Positions 5,454 through 22,678 of a stretch of DNA of 64,000 nt are shown in pieces. Position 1 is the first letter of the stretch. Every line of letters begins with the position of its first letter. The position numbers and the translations under genes were made by a program. Below the pieces are notes generated by a model. The model was not told the origin of the DNA, searched no databases, and saw only the letters and a list, made by a program, of their open reading frames with translations. The DNA lies in contig CP151667.1 of NCBI GenBank assembly GCA_038400315.1, positions 186,001-250,000 of the forward strand. Reading direction: 5' to 3'. This stretch comes from Isosphaeraceae bacterium EP7 (GTDB taxonomy: Bacteria > Planctomycetota > Planctomycetia > Isosphaerales > Isosphaeraceae).

Positions 5454-5728
5454 GCCGCCCCCGTCGCCCGTCCGGCTCGCCCGGTCTGGCCTTCACGAAA
5501 CCTTCCGGGATGCCTCGGCGCCCGGTCCCCCGGTGTTCCAGGGCTTTGTTGGTGACGCGTCGGAGGAGCATCGTCCGTAGAATATCTAGCCGGTGCGCGT
5601 CGATGGCCGCCCGGCCGCCGCGTTGTTCCGGCGGATCTCCGGCCCAAAGCTAGAGTTCCGTCCATTGTTTGGCCCGCTTGTGGCCTCCGACCAACCCTTT
5701 CCCCCCCGAAAGGCAGCGAGAGATTTCC

Positions 5729-7999
5729 ATGACTACGACGACGAGGAATGCTCACTCACCCCCCACGGCGCCCCGAGATTTCATGGCCGGCCTGGTCGTG
5801 TTTCTCGTGGCGCTCCCGCTCTGCCTGGGCATGGCCCTGGCGTCCAATGCCCCCTTGTTCTCGGGCGTCGTCGCCGGCGTGATCGGCGGCGTGCTGGTCG
5901 GCCTGCTCAGCGGGTCGCATTCCAGCGTCAGCGGGCCCGGCAACACGATGATGGCCATCGTGGCGGCCCAGATCCTGGCCCTCGGGTCGTTCCGCGCGTT
6001 CCTGCTGGCGGTGCTCATCGCGGGGCTCATCCAGATCGCCCTGGGCGTGGTCCGCGCGGGGTTCATCGCGGCGTTCGTCCCTTCCAGCGTGATCAAGGGG
6101 CTGCTGGCGGCCGTCGGCATCATCCTGACCCTGAAGCAGATCCCGCACGTGCTGGGGCACGACCCCGACCCCGAAGGCGACATGTCCTTCTTCCAGACGG
6201 ACAAGGCCAACACCTTCACCGAGATCGTCCGCACGCTCTGGGATATCCAGCCGGGCGCCGCGGCGGTCGGCCTCTCGTCGCTGCTGTTGCTGGTGCTCTG
6301 GGACGTCTGGAAGCCCCTGAAGCGGTCGGGCCTGCCCGCGGCGCTCGCCGTGGTGCTGATGGGCGTCGGCATGAGCCTGCTGTTCAAGTGGATCGGCGGC
6401 GGCTGGGCCATCTCGTCCAGCCACCTGGTCCAGGTGCCGGTGCCCGAGGACTTCAAGGGCTTCCTGGCTCTGCTACAGAGCCCGGACTTCTCGCAGTGGA
6501 GCAACCCCGGGGTTTACACCGCGGCGCTGACAATCGCGGCCGTGGCCTCGCTGGAGACGCTCCTGAACCTGGAAGCGGCCGACAAGATCGACCCGCAGCA
6601 GCGGACCTCGCCCCCCAGCCGAGAGCTGGTCGCGCAGGGCGTGGGCAACGTGGTCGCCGGGCTCATCGGCGGCATCCCGATCTCGTCGGCCATCGTGCGC
6701 AGCTCGGTGAACCTCAACGCGGGCGCCGCGACGAAGCTGTCGACGATCGTCCACGGCACTTTGCTGCTGGTCAGCGTGATGTTCCTGCCGGCTTATCTGA
6801 ACATGATCCCGCTGGCTTGCCTGGCGGCGATCCTGCTGGTCACCGGCCTGAAGCTGGTCAGCCCCGCCCTGATCCGCCAGATGTGGGACGTCGGCCGCCA
6901 GCAGTTCATCCCGTTCGCGTTGACGGTCGTCTCGATCGTGCTGACCGACCTGCTCACCGGCATCCTGATCGGCCTGGGCGCCAGCATCGCGTTCATCCTG
7001 GACAGCAACGTCAGGAGGCCGCTGAGACGCGTCGTGGAGAAGCACCTCGGCGGCGATGTCGTCCATATCGAACTGGCCAACCAGGTCAGCTTCCTGAATC
7101 GGGCCGTGCTCGATAAGACCCTCGACGAGATCCCCCGCGGCGGTCAGGTGCTGCTCGATGCCCGGACGACCGACTACATCGACCCGGACGTCCTGGCCCT
7201 GATCCGCGACTTCAAGGACAAGAAGGCGCCCGCGCGTGGGATCGAGGTCAGCCTGCTGGGCTTCCGCAGGCGGTACCTGCTCGAGGACCAGACGCAATAC
7301 GTCGACTACTCGACCCGCGAGATCCAGAGCGCCGTGACCCCCGCCCAGGTGCTCGAGATCCTCAGGGAAGGGCACGACCGGTTCCGCAGCGGCCACCGGC
7401 TGACCCGCGACTTCAACAGGGTCGTCACCGCGACGGCGCGAGGGCAGCACCCGCTGGCCGTCGTCCTCGGCTGCATCGACTCCAGGACCCCCGCCGAGCT
7501 GATCTTCGACCTGGGCATGGGCGACATCTTCACCGTCCGCGTCGCCGGCAACATCTCCAGCCGGAAGGTCCTGGGCAGCGTCGAGTACGGCACGGGCGTC
7601 GCCGGCGCCAAGCTCGTCCTGGTCCTGGGGCACACCCGCTGCGGGGCCGTCACCGCGGCCGTCGACCTGATGAACTCGACCCGATCGCCCGCCGAGGTCA
7701 CCGGCTGCCAGCACATCGGCCAGATCGTCGGCGACATTCAGAAGGCGATCGACCCGGACGACACCCGCGACATCGCCAGGCTCTCGCCCCAGGAGAAGGT
7801 GGAGTACACCAACGACGTCGCCCGCCGCAACGTCGCGAGGGTGGTGGAGGAGCTGCCCAACCAGAGCGAGACCCTTCGCGCCCTGGTCAACGAGGGCAAG
7901 ATTGCCATCGTCGGGGCCATGTACGACGTCGCCTCCGGCGACATGGAGTTCCTGCCCGGCTCCGTCGGCGCCCCCTGCGAGGTCGCCGCGAGCGTCTGA
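5729..7999 (+). CDS. SulP-family anion transporter fused to STAS-like and beta-carbonic anhydrase domains
   Basis: A 756-residue fusion. Residues about 12-430 form a SulP permease with repeated hydrophobic segments and phrases such as LPLCLGMALASNAPLFSG and GSHSSVSGPGNTMM. A STAS-like segment follows (about 440-545: VHIELANQVSFLNRAVLDK). Residues about 560-750 are a beta-carbonic anhydrase: Cys582 with Asp584 and Arg586 in GCIDSRTPAE, and His635 and Cys638 in LGHTRCGAV, as expected for zinc ligation and the Asp-Arg dyad. Family knowledge: SulP-CA fusions are thought to move bicarbonate and interconvert it with CO2. The upstream ATG of the open frame (5669) adds a segment unlike SulP proteins; ATG 5729 follows gcgagag and gives a normal SulP N-terminus. 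Confidence 0.93.
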   Translation: MTTTTRNAHSPPTAPRDFMAGLVVFLVALPLCLGMALASNAPLFSGVVAGVIGGVLVGLLSGSHSSVSGPGNTMMAIVAAQILALGSFRAFLLAVLIAGLIQIALGVVRAGFIAAFVPSSVIKGLLAAVGIILTLKQIPHVLGHDPDPEGDMSFFQTDKANTFTEIVRTLWDIQPGAAAVGLSSLLLLVLWDVWKPLKRSGLPAALAVVLMGVGMSLLFKWIGGGWAISSSHLVQVPVPEDFKGFLALLQSPDFSQWSNPGVYTAALTIAAVASLETLLNLEAADKIDPQQRTSPPSRELVAQGVGNVVAGLIGGIPISSAIVRSSVNLNAGAATKLSTIVHGTLLLVSVMFLPAYLNMIPLACLAAILLVTGLKLVSPALIRQMWDVGRQQFIPFALTVVSIVLTDLLTGILIGLGASIAFILDSNVRRPLRRVVEKHLGGDVVHIELANQVSFLNRAVLDKTLDEIPRGGQVLLDARTTDYIDPDVLALIRDFKDKKAPARGIEVSLLGFRRRYLLEDQTQYVDYSTREIQSAVTPAQVLEILREGHDRFRSGHRLTRDFNRVVTATARGQHPLAVVLGCIDSRTPAELIFDLGMGDIFTVRVAGNISSRKVLGSVEYGTGVAGAKLVLVLGHTRCGAVTAAVDLMNSTRSPAEVTGCQHIGQIVGDIQKAIDPDDTRDIARLSPQEKVEYTNDVARRNVARVVEELPNQSETLRALVNEGKIAIVGAMYDVASGDMEFLPGSVGAPCEVAASV

Positions 8000-8007
8000 G
8001 TCTTCGG

Positions 8008-8047
8008 CCGACGCGATCCCCCCGCCACACGCGGGGGATCGCGTCGG
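8008..8047 (+). terminator. Strong hairpin after the SulP-CA gene
   Basis: CCGACGCGATCCCCC and its reverse complement form a 15-bp perfect stem with a loop of about 10 bases, starting 9 bases after the stop codon. No T-run follows. Confidence 0.6.
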
Positions 8048-8097
8048 ACAATTCAGGGGACGACCCGTACTCGCGGGACCGGAGTTCCGGCATCATC
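8033..8097 (-). repeat. Relic duplicate of the asnB 3' end (left copy)
   Basis: Matches 8670-8735. The core 8065-8097 agrees with 8703-8735 at 30 of 33 bases. Read on the minus strand it still encodes a degenerate AsnB C-terminus (MMPELRSREYGS against MMLELWFREYGS). Confidence 0.8.
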
Positions 8098-8331
8098 GCC
8101 GAGATCGAATTCGGAAGGGCTTCGCAGCCGAAATCGAGGCTCGTTCACGCTTCCGCCGGCCCCGGACACTTCCCCTGCGAATTTGTGAGGTCGCTTCTTT
8201 TCGTCGGGACCATAGGCTTCGTCAAAAGCAAGGCATACTCTCCGATAAAACAAAAATATTTGAATCGTCGAAAATAAAACGATGGAGATGATTGCCACGA
8301 AAATCATCTGGCATTTCAGGCTGAATTTCAA
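8053..8331 (-). CDS. Possible small membrane protein in AT-rich islet
   Basis: A 92-residue open frame with one clear hydrophobic helix near the N-terminus (MIFVAIISIVLFSTIQIFLF), then a charged segment. The C-terminus runs out of frame into the asnB relic, which suggests the present stop is accidental. Start is TTG (8331) or the ATG eight codons later; a gaaggg lies about 12 bases before the TTG. No recognised family. Confidence 0.4.
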   Translation of the reverse strand: MKFSLKCQMIFVAIISIVLFSTIQIFLFYRRVCLAFDEAYGPDEKKRPHKFAGEVSGAGGSVNEPRFRLRSPSEFDLGDDAGTPVPRVRVVP

Positions 8332-8385
8332 CGTTGTCGCGCCCTTCTCATTTCAAATCAGGAATTGCCTCGTTAGGAAGTAGAA

Positions 8386-8598
8386 ATGGCGATCCTGCTT
8401 GGGAATCTCGTGTCGTTGATCGGAATCATATTCTATGTGCTGGGTTGCATTTACTGGATCATTTTCTTCACTTGTCGTCATAGGGCATTCATGCTGCGTA
8501 GGCGTAAGTTCTGGGATCTTTTCGGCAATCTGATCTTTGTGGGGATGGTTGTGTTCGCCGTCGGGAGAGTCATTGCGACGATGAAAGGCCCCCGTTGA
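8386..8598 (+). CDS. Small two-helix membrane protein
   Basis: A 70-residue protein with two hydrophobic stretches (about residues 3-28 and 48-65) joined by a basic loop CRHRAFMLRRRKF. A ribosome site aggaag lies 6 bases before the ATG. It sits in an AT-rich islet between the two copies of the asnB 3' end. Not assigned to any family I know. Confidence 0.6.
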   Translation: MAILLGNLVSLIGIIFYVLGCIYWIIFFTCRHRAFMLRRRKFWDLFGNLIFVGMVVFAVGRVIATMKGPR

Positions 8599-8669
8599 GG
8601 AGATTGGCGACGAGATACCATCGGGGCGAACCCGTGTCGCCGCAACGCCTGTCCGGGCAGGTCGGACCG

Positions 8670-8735
8670 GGGGGATCGCTTCGGGTTCCTCAGCGGGCTG
8701 AGCCGTACTCGCGGAACCAGAGTTCCAGCATCATC
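8670..8735 (-). repeat. asnB 3' end and flank, duplicated at 8033-8097 (right copy)
   Basis: Contains the last codons and stop of the intact asnB. It is a direct repeat of the left copy; outside the 33-bp core the match falls to roughly two thirds, with one indel. Confidence 0.8.
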
Positions 8736-10603
8736 AGCGCCCAGAGCTTGTAGGCGTTGTCGCGACGGCCCGACTGGTGGTCGTCGATCAAGGCGGCCAC
8801 GGCCTCGGGGCGGAACATGCCGCGGCCCAGGGCGACGGGGTCGAGCAGGACGGCTCGCAGCTCCTCGGCGAGCGGGCCGCGGAACCAGCGGTCGATGGGG
8901 ACTCCGAAGCCCATCTTGGGCCGATTGGCCAGGCCCGGCGGCATCAGGTCGGCGAAGGCCTGCTTGAGCACCACCTTGGACCGGCCCCCTCGCAGCCTCA
9001 GCTTGCGGTCGAGGGGCATCGCCAGGGCCAGCTCGACGACCCGGTGGTCGAGGAATGGGCCGCGGCATTCGAGGCTGTGGGCCATGCTGGCCAGGTCGAC
9101 CTTCACCAGCAAATCGCCGGGCAAGTAGGTGAGCATGTCGGCGATCATGGCGCGGGTCGCGGGGTCCCGGCCGGGCGCGGTGTCGAAGGCGCCGGCCAGG
9201 ATGGCGGCGGGGTCGGAGTCGCCATCCCCCTCGGCCAGCGAGGCGACGAAGGCATCGGTGTACAGGCTGGCGCGTGCCGGCTCGTCGAAGCTGGTGATCC
9301 AGCGCAGGTAGCGCCGCAGCGGCGGCTCGCCCAGGGCTTCCAGCAGCCGCTTGATGCGCCGCATCGGGGTTTTGGCCCGAGTGGAGACGGGCAAGGCCCG
9401 GGCGAGCGGCCCGGCGAGCAGGCCGCGGGCCCCGGCCGGCATGCGGTCGAGCATCGCGGCGAAGGCGACCGCGCGGTAGCGGTCGTAGCCGCCGAACAGC
9501 TCGTCGCCGGCGTCGCCGGTCAGGGCCACGGTGACCTCGCGGCGGGTCTCGCGGGCGACGTGCCAGGTGGGCAGCGCCGAGCTGTCGGCGAACGGTTCGT
9601 CGAACTGCACGGCCAGCGCGGGGATGGTCTCCCAGGCCTTCGGCTCAATGACGAAGCGGTGGTGCTCGGTGCCCAGGAACCGCGCGGCGGCCTCGGCGTG
9701 GGCCGTCTCGTCGAAGGCAGGGTCGTCGAAGCCGATGCTGAAGGTCTTCACCGGCCGGCTGGAAGCCCGCTGCATCAGGGCCACGATAATGGCCGAGTCG
9801 ACTCCGCCGGAGAGGAACGCGCCCAGCGGGACGTCGGCCACCATCTGCTCGCGGACGGCGTGGTCCAGCGTGGCCCTCAGCTCCTCGACGTCCTCGCCGT
9901 AGGGGCGTTCGCGCACCCGTGACCAGTCGGGGTTCCAGTATCGGGTGAGCGTGAGCTGGCCGTCTCGCCAGACCGCGTAGTGCGCCGGCGGCAGCTTGTG
10001 AACGCCTTCGAGGATCGTGCAGGGGTGCGGCACATATCCATAGGTGAGATACTGGTCGATAGCCCGATGGCTGGGCGTGCGGGGGACGTCGGCCTCGGGC
10101 AGCGCCAGCAGCGCCTTGAGCTCGCTGGCGAAGACGATCCGCCCGCCGTGGTTGCGGTAGTAGAGCGGCTTCTGGCCCAGGCGGTCTCGGCCCAGCACCA
10201 GGGTCTTGCGCGGGGCGTCCCAGATGGCCAGGGCGAACATCCCCCGGAGCATCGCGAACAGGCCGGTGCCGACGTCCTCGTAAAGGTGGACGAGCACCTC
10301 GGTGTCGCCGGTCGACCGCAGCCGGTGGCCGACCGCTTCGAGGCGGTGGCGGAGGTCCTGGAAGTTGTAGATCTCGCCGTTGAAGACGGTCCAGACGGTG
10401 CCGTCCTCGTTGGAGAGCGGCTGGTGGCCACCGGCCAGGTCGACGATCGAGAGCCTGCGGAAGCCGAGCGTGACGTTCGCGTCGAGGTGCTCGCCCGAGT
10501 CGTCGGGGCCCCTGTGGGCGATCCGCCGCGTCATCGCCAGGAGTTGTTCCGAGGTCAGCGGGCGAGCCCCGTCCACCCAGGCCGCGCCGCCAATCCCGCA
10601 CAT
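8690..10603 (-). CDS. asnB: Asparagine synthase (glutamine-hydrolysing)
   Basis: A 637-residue, two-domain enzyme that makes asparagine from aspartate, ATP and glutamine-derived ammonia. Cys2 after the initiator Met is the class II glutaminase nucleophile, and RRIAHRGPDDSGEH and FNGEIYNF are glutaminase-domain signatures. The synthetase domain has the PP-loop SGGVDS at 265-270 and GDAGDELFGGYDRY. The open frame extends 14 codons further upstream, but cleavage-free exposure of Cys2 requires the start at 10603. In planctomycetes such enzymes also occur in polysaccharide or peptide modification clusters; no such partner is adjacent here, so an alternative amidotransferase role cannot be excluded. 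Confidence 0.95.
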   Translation of the reverse strand: MCGIGGAAWVDGARPLTSEQLLAMTRRIAHRGPDDSGEHLDANVTLGFRRLSIVDLAGGHQPLSNEDGTVWTVFNGEIYNFQDLRHRLEAVGHRLRSTGDTEVLVHLYEDVGTGLFAMLRGMFALAIWDAPRKTLVLGRDRLGQKPLYYRNHGGRIVFASELKALLALPEADVPRTPSHRAIDQYLTYGYVPHPCTILEGVHKLPPAHYAVWRDGQLTLTRYWNPDWSRVRERPYGEDVEELRATLDHAVREQMVADVPLGAFLSGGVDSAIIVALMQRASSRPVKTFSIGFDDPAFDETAHAEAAARFLGTEHHRFVIEPKAWETIPALAVQFDEPFADSSALPTWHVARETRREVTVALTGDAGDELFGGYDRYRAVAFAAMLDRMPAGARGLLAGPLARALPVSTRAKTPMRRIKRLLEALGEPPLRRYLRWITSFDEPARASLYTDAFVASLAEGDGDSDPAAILAGAFDTAPGRDPATRAMIADMLTYLPGDLLVKVDLASMAHSLECRGPFLDHRVVELALAMPLDRKLRLRGGRSKVVLKQAFADLMPPGLANRPKMGFGVPIDRWFRGPLAEELRAVLLDPVALGRGMFRPEAVAALIDDHQSGRRDNAYKLWALMMLELWFREYGSAR

Positions 10604-10727
10604 CGTCCCGACCCTCTCTGCCCTGCCCTCGTCCGATCGATCCAACCTACCAGGACCGGCCCGCCCCCGCCATCGGGGCCGGGCCGATCGCCTCGTTCCT
10701 TGTTAAATGTCGATTTGCCGATTCGTC

Positions 10728-13700
10728 TCAGGCCGGGGCCAGGACCGCCCCGCCCATCGACCGCTTCAGGCCGGAGACGGTCGCCGGGGCCTCGGCTGGC
10801 GCGGAGGTGCGACGGGGCGCAGCACCGAGGAGGTGGGCCCGGGGCGTCGGATTGGGGACGGCGGCCCTGGATGTGGCCTTCGCGGCCGGCGGAGGCGCGA
10901 TCGACTGCGAGGCGAGGGCGCCGGCCGGGGCCGATCCCGACTCCTGCTTGCCCGCGGCGGCGTACGCCACCGTGAACCGAAATCCTTGAATCAACGGATT
11001 GTCATACGATCCGGCGCGTCCCCAGACGACGGCGGTCGTTGACAGGTCCGACGAGTTCCGGATGAACCACTGGGCCCTCGAGGGCCGATAGACCGCGAGG
11101 TCGGCCTGGCCGTCGCCGTCGTAGTCTCCCGTCAGGGGGATGTCGGTGTAGGCCAGCCCCCAGACCGCGAATCGGTCGGCCCCGCCGGCCGAGGGGCGGA
11201 TGGCCCAGAGGGCCGTCTGGGCCATGTAGACCGCGAAATCGGCCCTGCCGTCGCCGTCGTAGTCGGCCGCCATGGGGGCGTCGACCCGCTGGGACGAGCC
11301 CCAGACGAACACCGTCGCGGAGAGGTCCGCCGAGTTGCGGACGATCCACTGACCGGACCTGGGCTGGAAGACCCCGAGGTCGGCAAGCCCGTCGCCGTCG
11401 AAGTCGGCCGCCACCGGGATATCCTCGCTGCCCGCGCCCCCCCAGACGATCACCTGAGGCGCCGCGCCCGAGGTGTACCGGATGAACCACTGGGCCGTGT
11501 CGGGGTTATAAACCGCGAGATCGGCCCTGCCATCGCCGTCGAAGTCGGCCACGACGGGAAGATCATTGCTGCCCGCCCTGCCCCAGACCGCCGCGATCGG
11601 CGGTGCGCCCGACGACTGCTTGACGTACCACGTCGCCGAGCCGCGATCATACGCCGCGAGGTCGGCCACGCCGTCATTGTCGAAGTCGCCCGAGAGCACG
11701 TTCGTCAGTCCGGCGGCGTTCCCCCAGACGGTCGCCGTTGCCGCCGCCCCCGACGAATTCCGGATGACCCACCGGGCCGAGTCGGGCATATACACGCCGA
11801 GGTCGGCCTTGCCGTCGCCGTCGAAGTCATTCGGCGTTCGGGGCGCCGGCAGCGTGTCGCCCACGACCCAGGGTTCGTTGCCGTGAATACCGTCGTATGC
11901 CGAGACGAGTACCCGCGAGCCGATCGCCGCCAGGGGAGAGGCATACGAGCTGAGCTTGCCCGCGATGATGTCCGCGGCCAGCACGGTCCCGCCAGGAGTG
12001 CCGTCGGTGCTCCACAACTCGCGTCCGTGCACGCCGTCGTCGGCGGAGAAGTAGAGCCGACCGCCGGCGAGCGCGAACTCTCCGAAGATGCCGACGCTGA
12101 AGGTCTTGAGGAGGGTCGTCCCGGCCACGGTCCCGTCGCTCACGTAGAGGGCGTTGCCCGCGGAAACGAAGGCAATCCCACCGTTAAAAGCGGTCAGAGA
12201 TGTGATCTTGTTGATTGACGGATCCAGGCCGACGGGGACCGTGCCGGCCTCGGTGCCGTCGGACTGCCAGAGGAGCCCCTGGGTGTCGCTCGGCAGCGGG
12301 TAGTAAGGGCGTGCGATCGACGAGGTGAGATAGAGCAAGCCGTTCAGGTTGACCGCCGCTCTCAGGTCCATGAAGCGGCCATCGAGGTTAACGCCCGTCT
12401 TGCCGTCCATGATGACGTAAGTGCCCGCCGCCGTCCCGTCGGTCCGCCAGAGCAGCGAGCCATTCCCGGGGAAGTCGAGCGCGGTGAAGATGACGAGATC
12501 GCCGGCGGCCCGGAAGTTGGACGGCGATGAGCCGACGAACCCCGGCTGGAGGTCGACGATCATGACGGTGCCCGCCGCGGTGCCGTCGGTCTTCCAGGGC
12601 TCGGCGCCATGCACACCGTCGTCGGCGGTGAAGTAGAGGAGCCCATTCAGGAAGGCGAGCTTGGAGATGGACGAGCCTTCGGGGCGCAGCGAACGGATCA
12701 CCTTGACCACGGACGTCCCTTGAGCCGTGCCGTCGGTCTTGTAGAGTTGCTGGCCGACATCGGGGTCCGTGATGGTGAAGTAAAGCAGCGTGCCGCCGAC
12801 GGTCAGGTTTCCCGGCGTCGAGTAGTTCACTCCCGGGAAGATGTCCCGGATGATGGATGTCCCCGCGTCGGTGCCGTCGGTGCTCCAGATCTCGGTCCCA
12901 TGCTCCAAATCGCCCCCGGCGAAGTAGGCCCTTCCTTTGAAGGCGATGAGGGGACCGATAGGGGTGACTCGCGAGGTGACTTGTTTCGTGCCTAGGGGCG
13001 TCCCGTCGGTCCGCCAGAGCCCGCCGATGGGTGAGAGGAAAAGGGTGTATTGCCCCAAGGCGACCGCGTTGACCGGATTGGATGAGCCCGTTCCGGTCTG
13101 AGTCTGATACACCAGCTCGGTGCCCTCGGCCGTCCCGTCGGTCTTGAACAGCGTGATGCCGTGTGTGCCGTCATTCGCATCGAAGTAGACGGACCGCCCG
13201 ACGACGGCGAATGAGGGGTCGAACTGGATCGGATCATTGGGGCCGAATTTCAGGGAGAAGGCGTCCCCGGTCGGGTTGATCTCCTTGACGATCGAGGTAC
13301 CCGCCGCGGTTCCGTCGGTCTTCCAGAGCTCGGCATTGGAGTCGTGATAATAGCTAATGGAAGACGAGGCCACGAAGTAGATCGACGATCCGACCTGCGT
13401 CAGCGAGCGAGGGTATGCCGGGCTGCCGTCGCCGATGCTCACCGGCACGGTGCCGGCCTCGGTGCCGTCGGTCTTCCAGAGGTGGGTGATGTCGAAATCG
13501 GTCGCGGGGAAGAAGAGCGAGTCGCCCAGGGCGACGAACTCCGGGGGCGCCGCCCACCCCGTTGCACCGCTGACCGGCATGATCGCACTGAGCCGCGCGG
13601 TGCCGGCCTCGGTGCCGTCACTCTTCCAGAGCCCGTTTACGGAGCGGTCGCCGCCGGCGACGAAGTAGACCGAGCCTTTGAAGGTCGCCAGGTGCGAGAA

Positions 13701-14618
13701 AGAAAGGACGTTGCCCGAGAGATCGGTAGGCGGGCTGAACGTCTTGACCCGGACGGTGCCGGCCTCGGTGCCATCGCTCTTGTAAAGGCCGAAGCTGTAC
13801 CGAGGGGGGCCGATGTTGGGGTCGTAGGACGTGAAGTACAGCGTGTCACCGATCGACGTCCAGGTTTCCGCGGCCGGGATCATCGTTCCGGGTGGGGGAG
13901 CATTGTTATAGAGGGTCGCGACCCGGAGAGTCCCTGCGTTGGTCCCGTCAGTCTTCCAAAGACTTCGAGAGGTCGGTTCGGATGCCGAGAAGAACAGGGA
14001 ATTTCCGACCGGGGTGAGGTTCGTCGCATACGCATCACCCGGGCCGGCCATGACGTCCTTGAGCACGAATGTCCCGGCGTCAGTCCCGTCGGTCCTGAAG
14101 ACCTCATATCCGCCCGAGGGGCCCTTCGCGACGAAGTAGAGCAGGCCGCCGGCCACTGTGAGCTGGGGCGCGAGGAAGGGGGAGGTGCTGAGCGCGACCC
14201 CAGCAACTCTCACCGGATCGGCCGAGCCCGTCACCTTCCAGAGCGAGGGGCTTACCTCGTTCCGCGTCGAAGCCGCGAAGTAGAGCGACCCGCCTACCAC
14301 CGCTGAGGTCTTGGTCGTTGTGTAGGGATTGTTCGGCAGGTCCATGCGAGGGACGAAGACCTTGAACTCGCCGACGACCGTCGTCCCTGCCTCGGTGCCG
14401 TCGGTCTTGTAGAGGATCGGAAACGGGTCGGATTCGCGGGCAGCATTGAAGTAATTGAAGCCGTTGTAGGCGATGTTCGTCGACACCACGCCGTTGGGTA
14501 CGTTGAGATTGATGTCCTGGAGCAACGCCGAGGCGAGGAGCTGGCGGGGCTCCAGGGGCTCGAAGTTGGGGGCGAGGGTGGGGCGCAGGGCCTTGCTGGC
14601 TCGTCGGGGCGTGCTCAT
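10728..14618 (-). CDS. LEPR-XLL surface protein with ELWxxDGT and FG-GAP-like repeats (copy 1)
   Basis: A 1296-residue exported-type protein. The N-terminus carries the planctomycete LEPR-XLL motif (NFEPLEPRQLLASALL). About sixteen WKTDGTEAGT-type repeats (ELWxxDGT family) follow, each beginning with a short beta-rich stretch such as LYFTADDGVHG. The C-terminal third has six units with DFDGDGKADLGVY calcium-binding-like cores plus WVIRNSSG and VWG phrases (FG-GAP/VCBS-like). A Ser/Ala/Pro-rich tail ends the protein. The start at 14618 puts the LEPR motif near residue 20; an upstream in-frame Met adds 25 basic residues and is less likely. A paralog lies directly upstream. The function is unknown; surface adhesion or a structural role is inference. 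Confidence 0.88.
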   Translation of the reverse strand: MSTPRRASKALRPTLAPNFEPLEPRQLLASALLQDINLNVPNGVVSTNIAYNGFNYFNAARESDPFPILYKTDGTEAGTTVVGEFKVFVPRMDLPNNPYTTTKTSAVVGGSLYFAASTRNEVSPSLWKVTGSADPVRVAGVALSTSPFLAPQLTVAGGLLYFVAKGPSGGYEVFRTDGTDAGTFVLKDVMAGPGDAYATNLTPVGNSLFFSASEPTSRSLWKTDGTNAGTLRVATLYNNAPPPGTMIPAAETWTSIGDTLYFTSYDPNIGPPRYSFGLYKSDGTEAGTVRVKTFSPPTDLSGNVLSFSHLATFKGSVYFVAGGDRSVNGLWKSDGTEAGTARLSAIMPVSGATGWAAPPEFVALGDSLFFPATDFDITHLWKTDGTEAGTVPVSIGDGSPAYPRSLTQVGSSIYFVASSSISYYHDSNAELWKTDGTAAGTSIVKEINPTGDAFSLKFGPNDPIQFDPSFAVVGRSVYFDANDGTHGITLFKTDGTAEGTELVYQTQTGTGSSNPVNAVALGQYTLFLSPIGGLWRTDGTPLGTKQVTSRVTPIGPLIAFKGRAYFAGGDLEHGTEIWSTDGTDAGTSIIRDIFPGVNYSTPGNLTVGGTLLYFTITDPDVGQQLYKTDGTAQGTSVVKVIRSLRPEGSSISKLAFLNGLLYFTADDGVHGAEPWKTDGTAAGTVMIVDLQPGFVGSSPSNFRAAGDLVIFTALDFPGNGSLLWRTDGTAAGTYVIMDGKTGVNLDGRFMDLRAAVNLNGLLYLTSSIARPYYPLPSDTQGLLWQSDGTEAGTVPVGLDPSINKITSLTAFNGGIAFVSAGNALYVSDGTVAGTTLLKTFSVGIFGEFALAGGRLYFSADDGVHGRELWSTDGTPGGTVLAADIIAGKLSSYASPLAAIGSRVLVSAYDGIHGNEPWVVGDTLPAPRTPNDFDGDGKADLGVYMPDSARWVIRNSSGAAATATVWGNAAGLTNVLSGDFDNDGVADLAAYDRGSATWYVKQSSGAPPIAAVWGRAGSNDLPVVADFDGDGRADLAVYNPDTAQWFIRYTSGAAPQVIVWGGAGSEDIPVAADFDGDGLADLGVFQPRSGQWIVRNSADLSATVFVWGSSQRVDAPMAADYDGDGRADFAVYMAQTALWAIRPSAGGADRFAVWGLAYTDIPLTGDYDGDGQADLAVYRPSRAQWFIRNSSDLSTTAVVWGRAGSYDNPLIQGFRFTVAYAAAGKQESGSAPAGALASQSIAPPPAAKATSRAAVPNPTPRAHLLGAAPRRTSAPAEAPATVSGLKRSMGGAVLAPA
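14521..14577 (-). repeat. 57-bp block encoding the LEPR-XLL signal, identical in both paralogs
   Basis: All 57 bases are identical to 18550-18606, including synonymous positions, although the two genes differ widely elsewhere. Confidence 0.85.
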
Positions 14619-14720
14619 GATGGGGATGTCTCGGTGGCGCCGGACGGGCTGGCGGCGGGTAAGGCCCCGCGGTCGGTGTTTCGTGTTCGGCATGAATTGT
14701 TTCGGGGAGCTTGGTTCATG

Positions 14721-17700
14721 TCAATGGTGATGATTCCATGCATTGAATCGTCGTGCCTTGCCTGGCGGGGCTGAGTCGGGAGCGGCCATGGTTAGCGGGG
14801 CCTCGGCCGGCGGTGGGGTGCGCCGGGGCGTTGCGCCGAGGAGGCGGGCGCGGGACGCGGCGCTGTTGGGGACGGCCCTGGCCGTGATGATCGGGGGCGA
14901 AGCCGATGCCGCGGGGACCGTCAACGCTGGGGGCGCGACGGACTGCGCCGCGGGCGATGCCTGGCGGGCCGAGGCGGCGGGGCGGGATGTGATGGCGTCG
15001 TTGCCGTCGGCGGTCCTGCGGATCAGGGGGATGTCGCCCGATCCGGCGCGACCCCAGACGACGACGGTCGCCGACAGGTCCGACGAGTTCCGGATGAACC
15101 ACTGCGCCGTCGAGGGCCGATAGACCGCGAAGTCGGCCTTGCCGTCGCCGTCGTAGTCGCCCGTCAGGGGGATGTCGGTGCTGGTCTGGCCCCAGACGAC
15201 GACCGGGAGGTTGGCCCCGGCCGATTCGGCGATGATCCACTGGGCCGTGGCCGGGATGTAGACGGCGGGGTCGGCCTTGCCGTCGCCGTCGTAGTCGGCC
15301 ATGACGGGGATCTCGTCCGGTCGGAAGAAGCCGCAGTTGATCACCGAGGCCTGGGCGCCGCCGGAGTTGCGGATGGTCCAGAGTCCGGTCGCGTGCTCGA
15401 AGACGGCGAGGTCGGCCTTGCCGTCGCCGTCGTAGTCGGCCGCCACCGGCTGCTGGTCGGGGTTGCCGGCTAGGCCCCAGACGATTACATAAGAAGATGC
15501 TCCGGATGCGGACCGGATCGACCATTGTGCGGTGTCCGGGCTGTACACCGCGAGATCGTCCTTGCCGTCGCCGTCGAAGTCGGCCACGACGGGCACATCG
15601 CCGCTGCCCGCCCTGCCCCAGACCACCGAGAAGGGCGAGACGCCCGAGGATGGCCTGATCGACCAGATGGCCGACGTCAGGTCGTAGGTCACCAGGTCGG
15701 CCTTGCCGTCGCCGTCGAAGTCGCCGGAGAGGATCGTCGTCGAGCCGGCCGTGTTACCCCAGACGGTTGCCGATGCGTCGATTCCCGACGAGTTGCGGAC
15801 AACCCACTGCGCCGAGTCGGGCATGTAGACGCCGATGTCGGACTTGCCGTCGCCGTCGAAGTCATTCGGAGCGCGCGGAGCCGGCGACGTGTCGCCCACG
15901 ACCCAGGGCTCGTTGCCGTGGATACCGTCGGATGCGGCGACGAGCAGCCGTGAGCCGATGGCCGCCAGGGGGATGGCGGATGAGCTGAGCTTCCCGGGGA
16001 TGATGTCCTCGGCCAGCATGGTCCCCTCGGGGGTGCCGTCGGTCCGCCAGAGTTCCAGGCCGTGCGCGTCATCGCCCGCGGAGAAATAAAGGAAGTGGCC
16101 CGCGATCACGAAGGGGACTGCCGAGGTATTGTTGACTTGGGACTTCGGAATGACGGACGTGAGACGGCCCGTGCCGGCCTCGGTTCCGTCGCTCTTGAAG
16201 AGTCCGACGTTCGAGATCGCGACGTAGATGGCCCCTCTGAAGGCGATGATGGTTTTGCCTCTGTCCGTGTCTGTCTCAGTCAGGTTGGCGACCCGGCCGG
16301 TGCCAGCCGCGGTGCCGTCGGTCTTCCAGAGTTGAACCCCGCTGCTGCCCTCAGGAGTGACGAAGTAATAGAGCGTGCCGCCGAGCATCGCCGTCTGATT
16401 CCTGAAACTGCTAAAGGCGGGAATTGGACGGGGGCTGATCCTCAAAGTTCCCGCCGAGGTGCCGTCGGTCGACCAGTGCTGCGGCACTTCGTCGAGGCCC
16501 GATGCGTTGAAGACGACCGAGTTGCCGGACGCTTGGAACTCGGATGGATTCGAGGAGCCGGGCCCCGGGTTGACGTCGGCGACCATCACCGTACCCGCCT
16601 CGGTGCCGTCGGTCTTCCAGGGCTCGGCGCCGTGGGTGCCGTCGTTGGCCGAGAAGTAGAGGGTGCCGTTCACGTAGGAGAGATTGGAGACGGACGAACC
16701 CGAACTGTCGCTGAAGTAGGATTTCTCGGATCGGATCAATTTGACCACGGTCGTTCCCGCGGTCGTGCCGTCGGTCTTGTAGAGCTGCTTGCCGACGTTG
16801 GGGTCATACGCGACGAAGTAGAGCCAGTCGCCGCCGGCCTCCAACTGGTCCGCCTGCGCCGAGTTGGGGCCGGGAACGATATCCTGGACGATGTGCGTGC
16901 CGGCCTCGGTGCCGTCGGTGACCCAGAGTTCGGTGCCATGGGTGGCCTCGTTCGCGGCGAAGTAGATTTTCCCCTTGAAGGCCGTGAGGCGTGGGTACGG
17001 GGAGACCTGCGACGTGACCCTGGTCGTCCCGGGGGCGGTGCCGTCCGTGCGATATAGGACCGTGTTGGGGCCGGCCGGGTCATCATAAACTTTGACGACG
17101 AAGTAGGTGTATCCCCCCAACTCGACCGCGCTGTCGTCCCAAATTTCCAGGGACGTTGAGTTCGTGCCACCTTTCAAGCTCTTGACCAGCACGGTCCCGG
17201 GGTCGGTGCCATCGGACTTGTAGAGCGAGGCGCCATGGACTCCATCGTTGGCGACGAAATAGAGGGTGTTGCCCGACGACGTGAAGAGGGGGCCGCTCGC
17301 GCCTTGGTAGCCTGGATACAGGAGGTTGAATGCGTCGTGCAGCCCGGGATTAACGTCCTTGAGGACGACCGTGCCGGCCGCGGTGCCGTCGGTCTTCCAG
17401 ACCTCGTTGCCGGCGGTGATCGAGTTGGCCGCGAAGTAGAGCGTTGTGCCGACCACGGTCAGGAAGCGAGGATGTTGGGGGACATCGTCGCCGGTCGTGA
17501 CCGGCACGGTTCCTGCCGCGGTGCCGTCGGTCTTCCAGAGCTGGACACCGTAGGGGGTGTCGGCGTTGAAGAAGAGTTCACCGTTGAATTCAACGAATTC
17601 CGAGGTCGGAGGCCTCTGGGAATCGCTGTCGGCTGGGAGGACACTCTTGAGCCGGACGGTGCCAGCCGCGGTGCCGTCGGACTTCCAGAGCCCGTAGGTG

Positions 17701-18647
17701 TCGTTGCCGCCATCGGCGAAGTAGATCGAGCCCTGGAAAGCCACGATCGGCGAGTAAGAGGTCGACCAGGTGAGGTCGGGGCGACCGGGCGGGGTGTAAC
17801 TCTTGACGAGGACGGTTCCTGCTGCGGTCCCGTCGCTCTTGAACAGCCCGAAGCCGGGCACCTCGGTCGGGCCATTGTCGATGCGATCGGTGAAATAGAG
17901 GGTGTCGCCGATCGACGTCCAGGTCCTCGCAAATGCGGAGTAGGAATCGAACAAGATCGGGCCGCCGGGCATGTCGGCGACGTGAACGGTTCCCTCTGGC
18001 GTCCCGTCGGTCTTCCAGAGTCCTCGGGAGGAGGTCTCGAAGTCGTTGGTGGCGAAATAAAGGGAGTTTCCGACGGCCGTGAGATTCGTCACGTACGAGG
18101 AACTGCCGGGGACAGGGACCTTGAGGACCTTGGTGCCCGCGTCGGTCCCGTCCGTCCGGTAGATCTGAATTCCCCCAGAAGCGTCGTTGGCGACGAAGTA
18201 GAGCAGATCACCGGCCACGGTGAGCTGGGGTGGTATGTACCTGTAGATATGTGGCGAAAAGGGTGAGAAGTCGGTGATCCGGACCGGATCGGCCGTGCCG
18301 GTGATCTTCCAGAGTCGGCGCGGATCCAGGAATCGATCCTGCGACACGAAATAGAGCGACCCGTCGAACTCCACCGAGTTGGAGGGCAGCCCGAACTCAC
18401 CGACCATCGTGGTGACGCCCGTCGTGCCATCGGTCCGGTAAAGGACGGGTAAGGGACCGGTGTTGTCGGAGGCGGTGAAGTAGATCGAGCCCTGATAGGC
18501 GAAGGTTGATGCAAATTCGCCGGCGGTCGGGATCTGGCTGATATCCCGAAGCAACGCCGAGGCGAGGAGCTGGCGGGGCTCCAGGGGCTCGAAGTTGGGG
18601 GCGAGGCTTGGGCGCAGGGCCCGGCTGGGTCGTCGGAGGGTGCTCAT
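14721..18647 (-). CDS. LEPR-XLL surface protein with ELWxxDGT and FG-GAP-like repeats (copy 2)
   Basis: A 1308-residue paralog of the next gene downstream, with the same architecture: LEPR-XLL at the N-terminus, about sixteen TDGT repeats, six DYDGDGKAD units and a Pro/Ala-rich tail ending in three histidines. The start is the ATG at 18647 (MSTLRRPSRALRP), matching MSTPRRASKALRP in the paralog. The same frame stays open for thousands of bases upstream, but that is absence of stops in GC-rich DNA, since it overlaps convincing genes in other frames. The 102-base gap to copy 1 suggests tandem duplication, and they could be co-transcribed. Confidence 0.88.
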   Translation of the reverse strand: MSTLRRPSRALRPSLAPNFEPLEPRQLLASALLRDISQIPTAGEFASTFAYQGSIYFTASDNTGPLPVLYRTDGTTGVTTMVGEFGLPSNSVEFDGSLYFVSQDRFLDPRRLWKITGTADPVRITDFSPFSPHIYRYIPPQLTVAGDLLYFVANDASGGIQIYRTDGTDAGTKVLKVPVPGSSSYVTNLTAVGNSLYFATNDFETSSRGLWKTDGTPEGTVHVADMPGGPILFDSYSAFARTWTSIGDTLYFTDRIDNGPTEVPGFGLFKSDGTAAGTVLVKSYTPPGRPDLTWSTSYSPIVAFQGSIYFADGGNDTYGLWKSDGTAAGTVRLKSVLPADSDSQRPPTSEFVEFNGELFFNADTPYGVQLWKTDGTAAGTVPVTTGDDVPQHPRFLTVVGTTLYFAANSITAGNEVWKTDGTAAGTVVLKDVNPGLHDAFNLLYPGYQGASGPLFTSSGNTLYFVANDGVHGASLYKSDGTDPGTVLVKSLKGGTNSTSLEIWDDSAVELGGYTYFVVKVYDDPAGPNTVLYRTDGTAPGTTRVTSQVSPYPRLTAFKGKIYFAANEATHGTELWVTDGTEAGTHIVQDIVPGPNSAQADQLEAGGDWLYFVAYDPNVGKQLYKTDGTTAGTTVVKLIRSEKSYFSDSSGSSVSNLSYVNGTLYFSANDGTHGAEPWKTDGTEAGTVMVADVNPGPGSSNPSEFQASGNSVVFNASGLDEVPQHWSTDGTSAGTLRISPRPIPAFSSFRNQTAMLGGTLYYFVTPEGSSGVQLWKTDGTAAGTGRVANLTETDTDRGKTIIAFRGAIYVAISNVGLFKSDGTEAGTGRLTSVIPKSQVNNTSAVPFVIAGHFLYFSAGDDAHGLELWRTDGTPEGTMLAEDIIPGKLSSSAIPLAAIGSRLLVAASDGIHGNEPWVVGDTSPAPRAPNDFDGDGKSDIGVYMPDSAQWVVRNSSGIDASATVWGNTAGSTTILSGDFDGDGKADLVTYDLTSAIWSIRPSSGVSPFSVVWGRAGSGDVPVVADFDGDGKDDLAVYSPDTAQWSIRSASGASSYVIVWGLAGNPDQQPVAADYDGDGKADLAVFEHATGLWTIRNSGGAQASVINCGFFRPDEIPVMADYDGDGKADPAVYIPATAQWIIAESAGANLPVVVWGQTSTDIPLTGDYDGDGKADFAVYRPSTAQWFIRNSSDLSATVVVWGRAGSGDIPLIRRTADGNDAITSRPAASARQASPAAQSVAPPALTVPAASASPPIITARAVPNSAASRARLLGATPRRTPPPAEAPLTMAAPDSAPPGKARRFNAWNHHH
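18550..18606 (-). repeat. 57-bp LEPR-XLL coding block, second copy
   Basis: Identical to 14521-14577; encodes the LAPNFEPLEPRQLLASALL segment. Confidence 0.85.
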
Positions 18648-18781
18648 GGGGTGCAATCTCGTTGAAGCCGGACGGGCGAACTGGGTGCATCCCTGCGGTC
18701 GCTCCGCCGGCTTGGAGGGCCGATTGTTTCGGCGGCCTGGACTCCTGTCAAGGTTGATTCCATGCATGAACGAATGACGCA

Positions 18782-19633
18782 TTATTCGGCGTCGGGCTTG
18801 AAGCCCCAGATGACGTGGTCGATGCAAGTCAGGCTGAGGTCGGGGCTTTCGGCCATGCAGTGGGGGGAACCGGGGGTGGTCAGGGCGTCGAAGGTGGTTT
18901 GCATGGCGGGGGTCAGGCGGGGGCGGGCTCGGTTGGCGAGGTCTCGGAAGTATTCGAGGAGGAAGGTGCGCTCGTCGGGGCCTAGCGGGGCCTGGCGGAC
19001 GGTGGCACGGCTCTGCTCGGCGGGGCGGACGAGGCCGGCGTCTCGGAAGACCTGCACCAGGCGGCGGCCGACGTAGAACTTCTCGGGCTCGTCGGATTCG
19101 CGCTTGTAGGCGTCGTGCTCGGCCTGGCGCACGGCCAGCTCGACGTCGACCGGCCAGGGGAGCAGGACGTGATGCAGGGTGTCGTTCTCCAGGATGGCCA
19201 CGACGCCGCCCGGCCGGACGACCCGGGCCATTTGCTTCAGGGCCTCGACGGGCTCGGGCAGGCTGTAGAGGCTCTGGGCGCACCAGACGACGTCGAAGGC
19301 GCCGTCGGCGAAGGGCAAGTCCTCGAGCCTGGCGGCCGTCGGGCTGACGCGGGGGTCTCCTCCGGCCTGGTCGCGGGTCAGCCTGAGGTATGCGGGGAGG
19401 AGGTCGACGGAGGCGACGAGGCCGGTCTCGCCGACCCGCCGGGCCAGCCAGGCGGAGTAGACGCCGTCGCCGCAGGCCAGGTCGAGGACGCGATCGCCCT
19501 GGGCGATGGGCAGGGAGTCGACCATGGCCTGGAGCTCGGCGGCGAAGGCGCGGTGGTAGGCGCCCAGGAGCCCCTGGTAGTCGGGCAGGCGGTCGTCGGA
19601 GTCGGGCTTGGTCTCGGCGGATTGGGAGGACAT
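18782..19633 (-). CDS. Class I SAM-dependent methyltransferase
   Basis: A 283-residue protein with the Rossmann SAM-binding motif VLDLACGDGVYSAW (DLACGDG at 51-57), then SVDLLPAYL (motif II acidic residue), LPFADGAFDVVWCAQSLY (motif IV) and QMARVVRPGGVVAI (motif V-VI). This is the UbiE/Methyltransf_11 pattern. The C-terminal region (VELAVRQAEHDAYKR onward) is less typical and may set substrate choice. Substrate is unknown. It is transcribed towards the ELWxxDGT genes with a 134-base gap and divergent from 19863. Confidence 0.85.
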   Translation of the reverse strand: MSSQSAETKPDSDDRLPDYQGLLGAYHRAFAAELQAMVDSLPIAQGDRVLDLACGDGVYSAWLARRVGETGLVASVDLLPAYLRLTRDQAGGDPRVSPTAARLEDLPFADGAFDVVWCAQSLYSLPEPVEALKQMARVVRPGGVVAILENDTLHHVLLPWPVDVELAVRQAEHDAYKRESDEPEKFYVGRRLVQVFRDAGLVRPAEQSRATVRQAPLGPDERTFLLEYFRDLANRARPRLTPAMQTTFDALTTPGSPHCMAESPDLSLTCIDHVIWGFKPDAE

Positions 19634-19862
19634 GGGGGCTCGCGGGTGCTAGGGTGAGGTTGGGTGAGGGGGCCGGGGCCGAGCGGAGCAACCGCCGTGC
19701 CCGCCGGGCTGGCCCTCCAAGTTGAGGTCCCCGGGCGATCCCGCGAATCTTGGCGTGGCCGGCCGGGGTATCGGTAGAGTGACGAACGTGGCGGCGGCGG
19801 CAATCGCCGGGGTGACCTTCGCCCCGGGCCCCGGCGGTCCGAGAGCCCAAGGAGCTTTGAGG

Positions 19863-21605
19863 ATGATGCGGATGCGGCGGTTCCCCCGGTTGGTTTTGGT
19901 GGCGTCGCTGGCGCTGACGGCCTTCGCGGCCTGGTCGCGGCCGGCGCGGGCCCAGGTGGTGGTCGTGACGGCGCGGTCGCTGGATGCCCTGATCGGCGAG
20001 TTCCGGTACCTGGCGGAGAATGTCGGGTCCGAGGAAGACGCCAAGAAGGTGACCGACGGCCTGGACAAGTTGAAGGGGACCGAGCTGCTGAAGGGGGTGG
20101 ACACGACCCGCCCCTTCGGCCTCTTCGGGTCGATTGCCAAGGAGGCCGGGGCGCCGCCGACGGGCACCCTGTTCATCCCGGTGACGGACGGCCAGGCGGT
20201 GCTGGCCACGCTGGAGCAGGCCGGATTCGTGGTGCAGGAAGACCCGGGCGTGGCCGGGTTCACGCATAGGATCACCCCCCCCGGTGGCGCGGCGGGCGTG
20301 CCCTTGCTGGCCGTCTTGACCAAGGACTACCTGCTGGCTACGACCGGCACCGGCGGGGCCGATGAGCTGAAGGCCCTGCGGCCCGAGACCCTGCTGCCCA
20401 AGACGCCCGGGGCCGGCACCCTGTCGGTCCGGCTGCGGCTCGACCAGATCCCCGAGGAGTACAAGGCCCTGGTGCTCGGGCAGATCGAGCAGCGGCTGGC
20501 CGCCGAGCGCGACCGCAAGCCGGGCGAGAGCGACGCCGAGTACCAGGGTCGGCTGGCCGGCATGGCGTTCACCCAGGAGGCGTTCGATACCTTGCTGAAG
20601 GAGGCCGCCGAGCTGGGCCTGGACCTGAGGGTGGACACCGAGGCGGGGACCGCCGCCTTCGAGCTGTCGATGGGCGCGACGCCCGGCTCCAAGCTTGCCG
20701 AGACTGTGCGATCCTTCGGGGCGGCCCGCAGCCTGTTCCGCAACATCGGCAAGGACGCCGCGTTCGACGGCTGGGCCAACCTGCCGCTGTCCGGGCCGCT
20801 GCGCAAGGCCATCGACACGACGATCCAGCAGGGCCGGATCCAGGCCGCCAAGGCCGCCGAGGAGAAGGACCGCGTCCTGAGCACCAAGCTCATCGACGCC
20901 CTGGAACCGACCCTGAAGGGGGAAACCTTCGACCTGGGTGCCGCCCTGTACGGCCCCTACCCCGAGGACGCGGGCAAGACCCCGGTCTATGCCGCCCTGG
21001 TCGGCCTGAAGGTCAAGGACGGGGCCAAGATCGAGGCCTTCTTCCGCGAGGCCGTCTCGAACCAGGACGACGAGGACAAGAAGAAGGCCAAGGTCAGCCT
21101 CGACTTCGTCAAGGCCTCGCCCGAGGGGCCGGCCGTCCACAAGGTCGAGCTGCTGGAGAAGAACGAAGGGGACGAGCTGTTCGGCAAGGCCGACCTTTAT
21201 CTGTCGGTCCGCGACGACGTGATCCTGCTGTCCCTCGGCTCGCACGGGCAGGACGTGCTGAAGGACGCCCTGGCCCGGACCGCCGACAAGGCGCCGGCCG
21301 GCACCACCCAGCTGGAGCTGGCCGCCTTCCTGAAGCGGGTCGCGCCGATGACCGGCGACGATGACGAGGAACGCGCCGCGGCCAAGGAGGTCGCCGCCGA
21401 GACCTTCGTCGGCGAGGACGCGGACAAGGACGCCGTCCGGCTCAGGGTCGGTACCGAGGGGGACTACCTCCGGATCAGCCTGACCGCCGACGTCCCGGCC
21501 CTCAGCTTCCTGGCCGCGATCGGCGACGACGACGATGACGACGACGACAAGGCCGACAAGAAGGACGACGACAAGACGGAGAAGGACGACAAGGACGACA
21601 ACTGA
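19863..21605 (+). CDS. Exported protein of unknown function with acidic Asp/Lys tail
   Basis: A 580-residue protein. Residues about 5-30 form a signal peptide (LVLVASLALTAFAAW, then RPARA|Q). The body is an alternating helical/beta protein of a planctomycete type I cannot name; it includes VNFG-free, charged helices such as KVTDGLDKLKGTELLKGVD. The last 25 residues are almost only Asp, Lys and Glu. The start was chosen at 19863 because aaggag lies 8 bases upstream and the signal peptide begins there; the open frame starts 47 codons earlier with no signal sequence. Divergent from the methyltransferase gene. Confidence 0.75.
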   Translation: MMRMRRFPRLVLVASLALTAFAAWSRPARAQVVVVTARSLDALIGEFRYLAENVGSEEDAKKVTDGLDKLKGTELLKGVDTTRPFGLFGSIAKEAGAPPTGTLFIPVTDGQAVLATLEQAGFVVQEDPGVAGFTHRITPPGGAAGVPLLAVLTKDYLLATTGTGGADELKALRPETLLPKTPGAGTLSVRLRLDQIPEEYKALVLGQIEQRLAAERDRKPGESDAEYQGRLAGMAFTQEAFDTLLKEAAELGLDLRVDTEAGTAAFELSMGATPGSKLAETVRSFGAARSLFRNIGKDAAFDGWANLPLSGPLRKAIDTTIQQGRIQAAKAAEEKDRVLSTKLIDALEPTLKGETFDLGAALYGPYPEDAGKTPVYAALVGLKVKDGAKIEAFFREAVSNQDDEDKKKAKVSLDFVKASPEGPAVHKVELLEKNEGDELFGKADLYLSVRDDVILLSLGSHGQDVLKDALARTADKAPAGTTQLELAAFLKRVAPMTGDDDEERAAAKEVAAETFVGEDADKDAVRLRVGTEGDYLRISLTADVPALSFLAAIGDDDDDDDDKADKKDDDKTEKDDKDDN

Positions 21606-21670
21606 GCCGGGCCGCGACGCGGTCCCCCTCGCCGGCCTGGCGCCGGCGGGGGGGCCGGCTTCGGGCCGGT

Positions 21671-22678
21671 TCAGTTGGGCGGGGCGAGGTCCGGCAGGGG
21701 GATGTCGTCGGGGTTGGACCGGCCGGCGGCCGGCTTGGCCCTGGCCTTCGGCTTCGCGGGGGTGGCGGTGGAGTCGGGGTCGGTGGCCTTGAAGCTGGCC
21801 CCCGGGGTGGTAGCCGGCTCGTCGGCGACGGTCGACTCGATGATAGTCGGGGGCTCGTCCGCCGGCTTGATCACGGTGCCCGGGGGCACGATGACCTCGG
21901 CGGGCCCGTCGACGATCACCTCCTCGACCTTCAGCGGCGGGGCGTGCAGGTCGAGCAGGGCCTTGAGCTTGGTGCCCGACGGCGGGACCGAGATCTCGGC
22001 GCCGCCGACGATCTCGGCGGGCCTGACGCCGGGCAGATTGTAATAGACGTTGTTGGCGGCCCAGTCGACGGCCAGCACCGAGCCGTCGACGGAGGCGCCG
22101 GCGAAGAGCCCTCGGCTGCGCGCGTAGGAGAGGATCTCGGCGCGGAACCTCGGGTCGGTCCCGGCCCCCAGCTGCTTGCCCACCGGGCCGGCGGCCACGC
22201 CCACGTTGCCGCCCAGGGTCAGCTTGTCTCGGCCGCTGAGGACGCGCTGGACGGCCGCCCTGTTGCGGAAGACCAGCAGCAGCTCGCTGCTCTGGGCCCC
22301 GATCTGGAGCCCGACGCTGCCGCCGGAGAGGGTGACGAAGACGGGGTTGCTCCAGGTCCCCTTGGCGGTGCGCACCAGCAGCACGCCGCGGCCGTGCTTG
22401 CCGCCGATGACGAAGCCGGCCTTGATCATGTTGGGGATGATGAGGATCCCCTCGGCCTGCTGGAGCAGGACCTGGGGGACGGCCTGCTCGGAGTTGAAGT
22501 TGGTGGCGACGTCCTGGAAGGCGCCGTTGGCCATCTCGACGATGGCCATCTCGTTGCGGCCATTGCGCCCCGGGCGCTGGGCCCTGGCGTCGGCGGCCGC
22601 GGTGGCCAGGGCCAGCAGGGCGAGTGCGATGGTGGCCGCCGGGATCGTCCGGGGCCGGGGCGCTGCGTGCGTCGTCAT
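21671..22678 (-). CDS. Exported Ysc84/SYLF-domain protein
   Basis: A 335-residue protein with a signal peptide (IALALLALATAAADARAQ). Residues about 50-230 match the SYLF (Ysc84, DUF500) pattern: LLQQAEGILIIPNMIKAGFVIGG, GRGVLLVR, SVGLQIGAQSSELLLVF and KLTLGGNVGVAAGPVG. Family knowledge: SYLF domains bind phosphoinositides or other lipids in eukaryotes; bacterial members are periplasmic or outer-membrane associated with unclear roles. The C-terminal 90 residues are a Pro/Ala/Thr-rich low-complexity tail. GGAGG sits upstream of the ATG. Convergent with 19863 (65-base gap) and divergent from glgC. Confidence 0.88.
   Translation of the reverse strand: MTTHAAPRPRTIPAATIALALLALATAAADARAQRPGRNGRNEMAIVEMANGAFQDVATNFNSEQAVPQVLLQQAEGILIIPNMIKAGFVIGGKHGRGVLLVRTAKGTWSNPVFVTLSGGSVGLQIGAQSSELLLVFRNRAAVQRVLSGRDKLTLGGNVGVAAGPVGKQLGAGTDPRFRAEILSYARSRGLFAGASVDGSVLAVDWAANNVYYNLPGVRPAEIVGGAEISVPPSGTKLKALLDLHAPPLKVEEVIVDGPAEVIVPPGTVIKPADEPPTIIESTVADEPATTPGASFKATDPDSTATPAKPKARAKPAAGRSNPDDIPLPDLAPPN

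Follow-up and report, generated by a model that had tools for sequence, protein, structure and literature searches.

The window, by which we mean the whole 64,000-nucleotide stretch of DNA analyzed here, corresponds to positions 186001-250000 of a 7.0-Mb contig in a GC-rich genome (~67%) whose relatives are planctomycetes. Near its left end, the gene for a SulP-family permease fused to carbonic anhydrase (SulP-CA, plus strand) and asnB (minus strand) are convergent, and the space between them is occupied by two copies of the asnB 3' end with an AT-rich islet between the copies. The features of this locus, by window position, are as follows:

5669..7999, plus strand: SulP-CA (Pfam Sulfate_transp 3.6e-57, Pro_CA 2e-35)
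8008..8047, both strands: bidirectional hairpin with a 15-bp perfect stem, identified as an inverted repeat; presumed ancestral terminator common to SulP-CA and asnB
8033..8097, minus strand: left copy of the repeat, a decayed and probably displaced asnB 3' end (~14 codons, the stop and 20 nt downstream, including the right arm of the hairpin)
8053..8331, minus strand: 92-aa ORF with a TTG start, one hydrophobic stretch at the N-terminus and no family match; doubtful gene
8098..8669, no strand: probable inserted islet, 572 bp, 51.2% GC, unmatched by asnB, SulP, upstream DNA or the remainder of the genome
8386..8598, plus strand: orphan 70-aa ORF with two hydrophobic stretches and a Shine-Dalgarno-like AGGAAG shortly ahead of its ATG
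8670..8735, minus strand: right copy of the repeat, the working asnB 3' end, with the stop codon at 8690-8692 and half a hairpin without its partner
8690..10645, minus strand: asnB, glutamine-hydrolysing asparagine synthetase, 651 aa, intact (Pfam Asn_synthase 1.1e-102, GATase_7 1e-44)

Beyond asnB, window positions 10728-22862 hold adjacent very long ORFs rich in an 'LWKTDGTxAGT' repeat and then in FG-GAP-like repeats; DNA repeats indicate that these are apparently tandem paralogues, the second of them probably called beyond its true start.

The repeated end of asnB and the islet it encloses

The two copies of the asnB end are identical in 53 of 66 alignment columns, with one 1-nt gap, and their local alignment score of 65 compares with a mean of 20.4 (sd 2.5, maximum 32) over 2,000 dinucleotide shuffles, which bears out the direct repeat named in the original prediction. 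The core (8065-8097 and 8703-8735) matches at 30 of 33 positions, again as predicted, and with up to three mismatches allowed it is found genome-wide at these two sites only; further asnB-family genes are present in the genome, and these paralogues do not carry the core sequence.

The left copy had also been read as a decayed AsnB C-terminus, and closer comparison agrees. In the direction of asnB, the right copy runs ATG ATG CTG GAA CTC TGG TTC CGC GAG TAC GGC TCA GCC CGC TGA; the left copy remains in frame up to TAC GGG, and one base has been lost between there and the TGA. Its translation, MMPELRSREYGSS as against MMLELWFREYGSA in AsnB, thus has a frameshifted C-terminus, and it carries residue changes of L to P, W to R and F to S, which suggest that selection at the protein level is gone from this copy. 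Differences between the copies are distributed 1/4/1 over codon positions 1/2/3, and 6 of the 20 noncoding sites past the stop have changed, a pattern indicating decay after duplication and not the coexistence of two functional genes. Homology ends abruptly on either side, and the limit within the gene falls ~14 codons ahead of the stop despite 30/33 identity just inside it.

The left copy abuts the terminator of SulP-CA. Directly to its left lies CCGACGCGATCCCCC, which is exactly complementary to GGGGGATCGCGTCGG at the end of the copy itself, and these form the two arms (8008-8022 and 8033-8047) of the hairpin, which adjoins the SulP-CA stop codon and has its right arm inside the left copy. 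The predicted RNA folds reach -37.7 kcal/mol on one strand and -38.8 kcal/mol on the other, with a z of -4.5, and the exact GCGATCCCCC..GGGGGATCGC hairpin has no second occurrence in the genome. In the right copy, one arm survives with a single change but lacks a partner, and predicted folding on this side does not exceed that of shuffles (z +0.6). On a simple reading, SulP-CA and asnB formerly used one common hairpin terminator. Because the hairpin is intact solely with the left copy, the left copy is probably the original asnB 3' end, displaced by ~637 bp, and this orders the events at the locus.

Between the copies, where about 600 bp of AT-rich DNA had been noted, lies an islet so low in GC that, over 1.67 Mb of sampled genome, just 0.26% of windows of equal length (572 bp) reach its level. 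Measured against shuffles, the islet shows no excess similarity to the asnB body, to SulP or to DNA upstream of asnB, which led us to reject duplication of neighboring DNA, or of the 3' end of SulP, as its origin; a 25-nt, 72% match met in this comparison was taken as chance. With tblastn, no AsnB trace is recovered within the islet, and the rest of the genome holds no second copy of it. There is no inverted repeat pair bounding the islet, and hence no transposon-type termini, and the islet holds no recombinase, only two small ORFs without a family match.

Both had been described as small membrane ORFs. The 70-aa ORF, with its two hydrophobic stretches, has no convincing E-value match in the 25 genomes compared (24 besides its own), Pfam, PHROGs or IMG/VR, and a viral origin was set aside when nothing was found in the latter two. 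The 92-aa ORF is the weaker gene candidate because the 3' portion of its reading frame extends through the left copy. The content of the islet is therefore at most one or two orphan membrane genes. An ORF at window positions 37021-37173 and the 92-aa ORF begin with similar-looking short membrane leaders (RFRVRTLMILVVVAA, KFSLKCQMIFVAIIS).

Decayed copies of other gene ends

A scan for gene ends repeated nearby, covering 2.47 Mb (35% of the genome) and using a crude gene caller, recovered seven other genes, tandem paralogues aside, whose last ~50-250 bp recurs downstream in decayed form with unrelated DNA between. Gene names are those of Pfam, and lengths are given in alignment columns:

107604-108653: acyltransferase; 136 columns, insert ~2.2 kb
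467727-468416: methyltransferase; 251 columns, insert 2.1 kb
1056617-1058341: TrpE; 92 columns, insert 3.2 kb
1063883-1065343: M14 peptidase; 211 columns, insert 4.3 kb
3052407-3052889: Tae4; 61 columns, insert 3.2 kb
3065634-3066224: BON protein; 147 columns, a third copy following
37333-40122, in the window: kinase(-TPR) gene; end recurs decayed at 32015-32134, 123 columns, 100 identical

The last of these bears on a likeness drawn in the original prediction, between the asnB islet and an array of small membrane ORFs at 35-37 kb, and makes it closer than claimed: the array, too, lies between a gene 3' end, that of the kinase, and its decayed copy. The kinase end sequence occurs at two sites only in the genome, 5.2 kb apart, with the AT-rich small-ORF array (35.4-37.2 kb) and a TPR gene between them, so that the layout is that of the asnB islet on a larger scale. 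At the BON locus (contig 3066172-3069184), three successive copies of the gene end enclose two different stretches of cargo, one with RelB/YafQ and DUF6928 and the other with DUF3592; relative to the stop codon, the repeat spans -53..+94 in the first pair and, as judged from blast limits, ~-12..+165 in the second. The convergent TrpE and M14 genes (contig 1056617-1065343) have interleaved end copies: the TrpE end comes first, then the M14 copy, the TrpE copy and lastly the M14 end, an order that a tandem duplication of their junction with different spacers would produce.

Toxin-antitoxin pairs are among the cargo of the sister inserts, which includes, besides the contents of the BON locus, HicA with a HicB-like partner and a PEP-CTERM protein. 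A LuxR-type regulator lies in the insert at an M19 peptidase locus (672619), which was set aside as ambiguous because another M19-like-looking gene stands between the copies. No integrase or recombinase was seen in the sister inserts examined, no common core or termini were evident among the loci by inspection, and the limits of the repeat vary between them. Summed over seven loci (M14 and the methyltransferase left out, asnB and the ambiguous M19 locus counted in), differences fall 27/21/26 on the three codon positions, an even spread which indicates that the copies were near-identical at formation and decayed afterwards. Third-position differences are in excess for M14 and the methyltransferase, whose copies may already have diverged on joining or may both have been functional for some time.

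The scanned part of the genome holds no fresh scar with near-identical copies, aside from one gene-end repeat near 1,241,600 whose copies are 100% identical and which proved to be a 993-bp IS pair. A counterpart at a gene 5' end was found in one clear case (10990-11886). Given small numbers and the crude gene caller, the preference for 3' ends is suggestive only, and it must partly reflect selection, since insertions at a 3' end spare the gene. Control scans of other bacteria and of relatives gave few or no scars, but from samples too small, and with a cruder gene caller, to prove this genome special or to indicate the frequency of such scars elsewhere. Separately, contig positions 257730-260873 are bounded, in noncoding DNA, by a direct repeat of 125 bp (74%) and contain a small helix-turn-helix-like ORF and a 370-aa ORF that appears reverse transcriptase-like by eye, possibly a retron-type or defense islet.

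Within the family, the DNA 3' of asnB varies from genome to genome and the locus is not syntenic. An asnB-end repeat was found in 0 of 19 relatives' downstream regions, and the idea of a recurrent asnB hot spot across the family was abandoned on this count. SulP-CA is present in a minority of family genomes and adjoins asnB in none of the others, and no empty site was seen among these non-syntenic loci.

Probable insertion at the asnB end and its alternatives

We consider insertion at the asnB 3' end with displacement of the old end, by whatever enzyme, to be the best explanation of the locus, with a probability of about 0.8. The original prediction proposed integration at a gene 3' end with restoration of the target. 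Insertion leaving an intact gene end is strongly supported by the abrupt limits of homology and the unrelated islet, with the hairpin suggesting which copy came first; the site-specific part of that proposal fares less well, there being no recombinase, no inverted termini and no evident core among the sister loci. Before the event, asnB and SulP-CA would have converged on the single hairpin terminator between them. Long ago, foreign DNA would have entered at the asnB 3' end, setting fresh last codons, a stop and 20 nt of asnB beside the body of the gene as the right copy and moving the old end, its terminator still attached, to the far side as the left copy, where a frameshift and changes at all codon positions would subsequently have accumulated. 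The likeliest route would be a homologous single crossover in which the incoming molecule, circular or re-circularised, brought the asnB end together with cargo. Given insertion, such a capture comes close to an even chance, with a site-specific integrase a lesser prospect and other routes lesser still. Single crossover is preferred because recombinases are lacking and similar scars occur at unrelated genes with differing boundaries, and the locus has the arrangement such a crossover leaves, with gene-end homology duplicated around foreign DNA and no recombinase. It calls for neither the recombinase and fixed core of an integrase route nor the Ku of classical end joining. The genome encodes a ComEC homolog, which permits DNA uptake but does not demonstrate it. 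Two considerations weigh against these readings: a circle of ~640 bp is small for a single crossover, unless the islet has shrunk since, and the homologous part would have had to originate in the same species, as the copies were apparently near-identical when formed.

Two narrower versions of insertion overlap with this estimate. In one, a small element or satellite used the asnB 3' end as its attB, and the 66-bp repeat is an attL/attR pair made by a tyrosine recombinase that either worked in trans or has disappeared since. The topology, the restored gene and the length of the repeat suit an att pair, 17 Phage_integrase-domain matches were found genome-wide, and the three successive BON end copies resemble tandem accretion; the nearest integrase match, however, is more than 350 kb away, neither the islet nor the sister inserts examined hold a recombinase, inspection reveals no core or termini in common, and repeat limits that shift by locus, and even between successive BON copies, are not those of a fixed att site. 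We regard this version as unlikely, though deserving of some weight. The other version, end-joining capture at a staggered double-strand break with the duplication as filled-in stagger, accommodates the variable limits, the varied cargo and the want of shared termini, but it does not predict a bias to gene 3' ends beyond what selection allows, and classical NHEJ is absent since the genome has no Ku homolog; it is accordingly quite improbable. Transposition was rejected, as the islet lacks inverted ends and the duplication is not short and of fixed length; at 66 bp, it is far longer than the usual transposon target-site duplication.

Explanations without insertion must contend with the hairpin and the islet itself. 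If the islet were native and only the 66-bp asnB end had been copied downstream by template switching, the end product would be identical, and the decayed end copies at other loci would be accounted for as well. The left copy, however, completes a 15-bp perfect hairpin with the DNA next to SulP, so that its later arrival would call for coincidence or a second event, and the islet is unusually AT-rich for a native spacer; we give such local copying little credence. The possibility that the left copy is all that remains of an old tandem asnB or asnB-like gene, which the original prediction named as grounds for refutation, draws on the state of this copy, a decayed end of AsnB in the same orientation, and on the other asnB-family genes in the genome. 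Yet neither DNA nor protein comparison finds further AsnB homology across the 572 bp that precede the left copy, the homology stops abruptly ~14 codons ahead of the stop with near-identity just inside, the asnB paralogues elsewhere lack the sequence, and the unrelated AT-rich DNA is left unexplained; this reading is very improbable and, to the extent that sequence permits, excluded.

Returning to insertion with displacement, gene-sparing events that leave a decayed spare end can be read without strain comparison: the scar marks the target, the limits of the cargo and a rough age. Gene ends may have served this bacterium more than once as sites of DNA gain. A broader reading, which we hold only tentatively and think somewhat unlikely, is that this planctomycete lineage has a general, integrase-free route by which ordinary protein-coding genes receive small cargo at their 3' ends. 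The cargo would comprise toxin-antitoxin pairs, orphan membrane genes and secreted proteins, the gene end being regenerated and the old end displaced each time, and the asnB islet would be one of perhaps twenty or so scars, extrapolating from 35% of the genome. Taken singly, the asnB islet is no more than a modest relic; its place in a series of displaced gene ends makes it more interesting, and testable. If the series holds, it could account for the establishment in genomes of small accessory genes that bring no integrase with them.

Relation to known displacement and integration systems

Genomic islands with an attB at a gene 3' end leave a direct repeat of the gene end and restore the gene. 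The asnB locus shares this direct repetition on either side and the intact gene, and differs in its very small size and in having neither an integrase nor a defined core. For planctomycetes, our literature search found nothing to the point on scars of gene-end displacement.

A mechanistic parallel may be found in E. coli, where re-circularised linear DNA integrates by one crossover, producing direct gene-end duplications of 109-950 bp with no integrase; in a test of illegitimate recombination, most clones proved to be such single-crossover insertions (PMC3240628). Gene-end duplication around foreign DNA is common to both cases, with repeats of ~50-250 bp here, although the E. coli events involved a laboratory construct, whereas the scars described above are natural and old.

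The C-terminal displacement of Rhs genes offers a natural analog: there, inserted DNA stands after the intact gene, the displaced original 3' end of that gene comes next, and serial events build arrays (Jackson et al., 2009; PMC2935791), as at the BON locus here. For displaced Rhs tips, the proposed model is single-crossover integration, by homology, of a circle that bears the end of the gene (PMC2935791). In Rhs, however, the new C-terminus differs as a variable tip, while at asnB the end sequence is essentially unchanged. In the Vibrio type VI secretion system (T6SS), likewise, a gene-anchored insertion moves the old 3' end and its neighbor downstream, and effector displacement via homology-facilitated illegitimate recombination has been proposed (PMC5361080); there, an effector-immunity module replaces the effector, whereas here the host gene is kept. 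One of the sister loci is itself a Tae4 family gene, but the affected genes otherwise include ordinary ones such as asnB and trpE, and if the series holds, gene-end displacement, known from toxin genes, would extend to ordinary genes.
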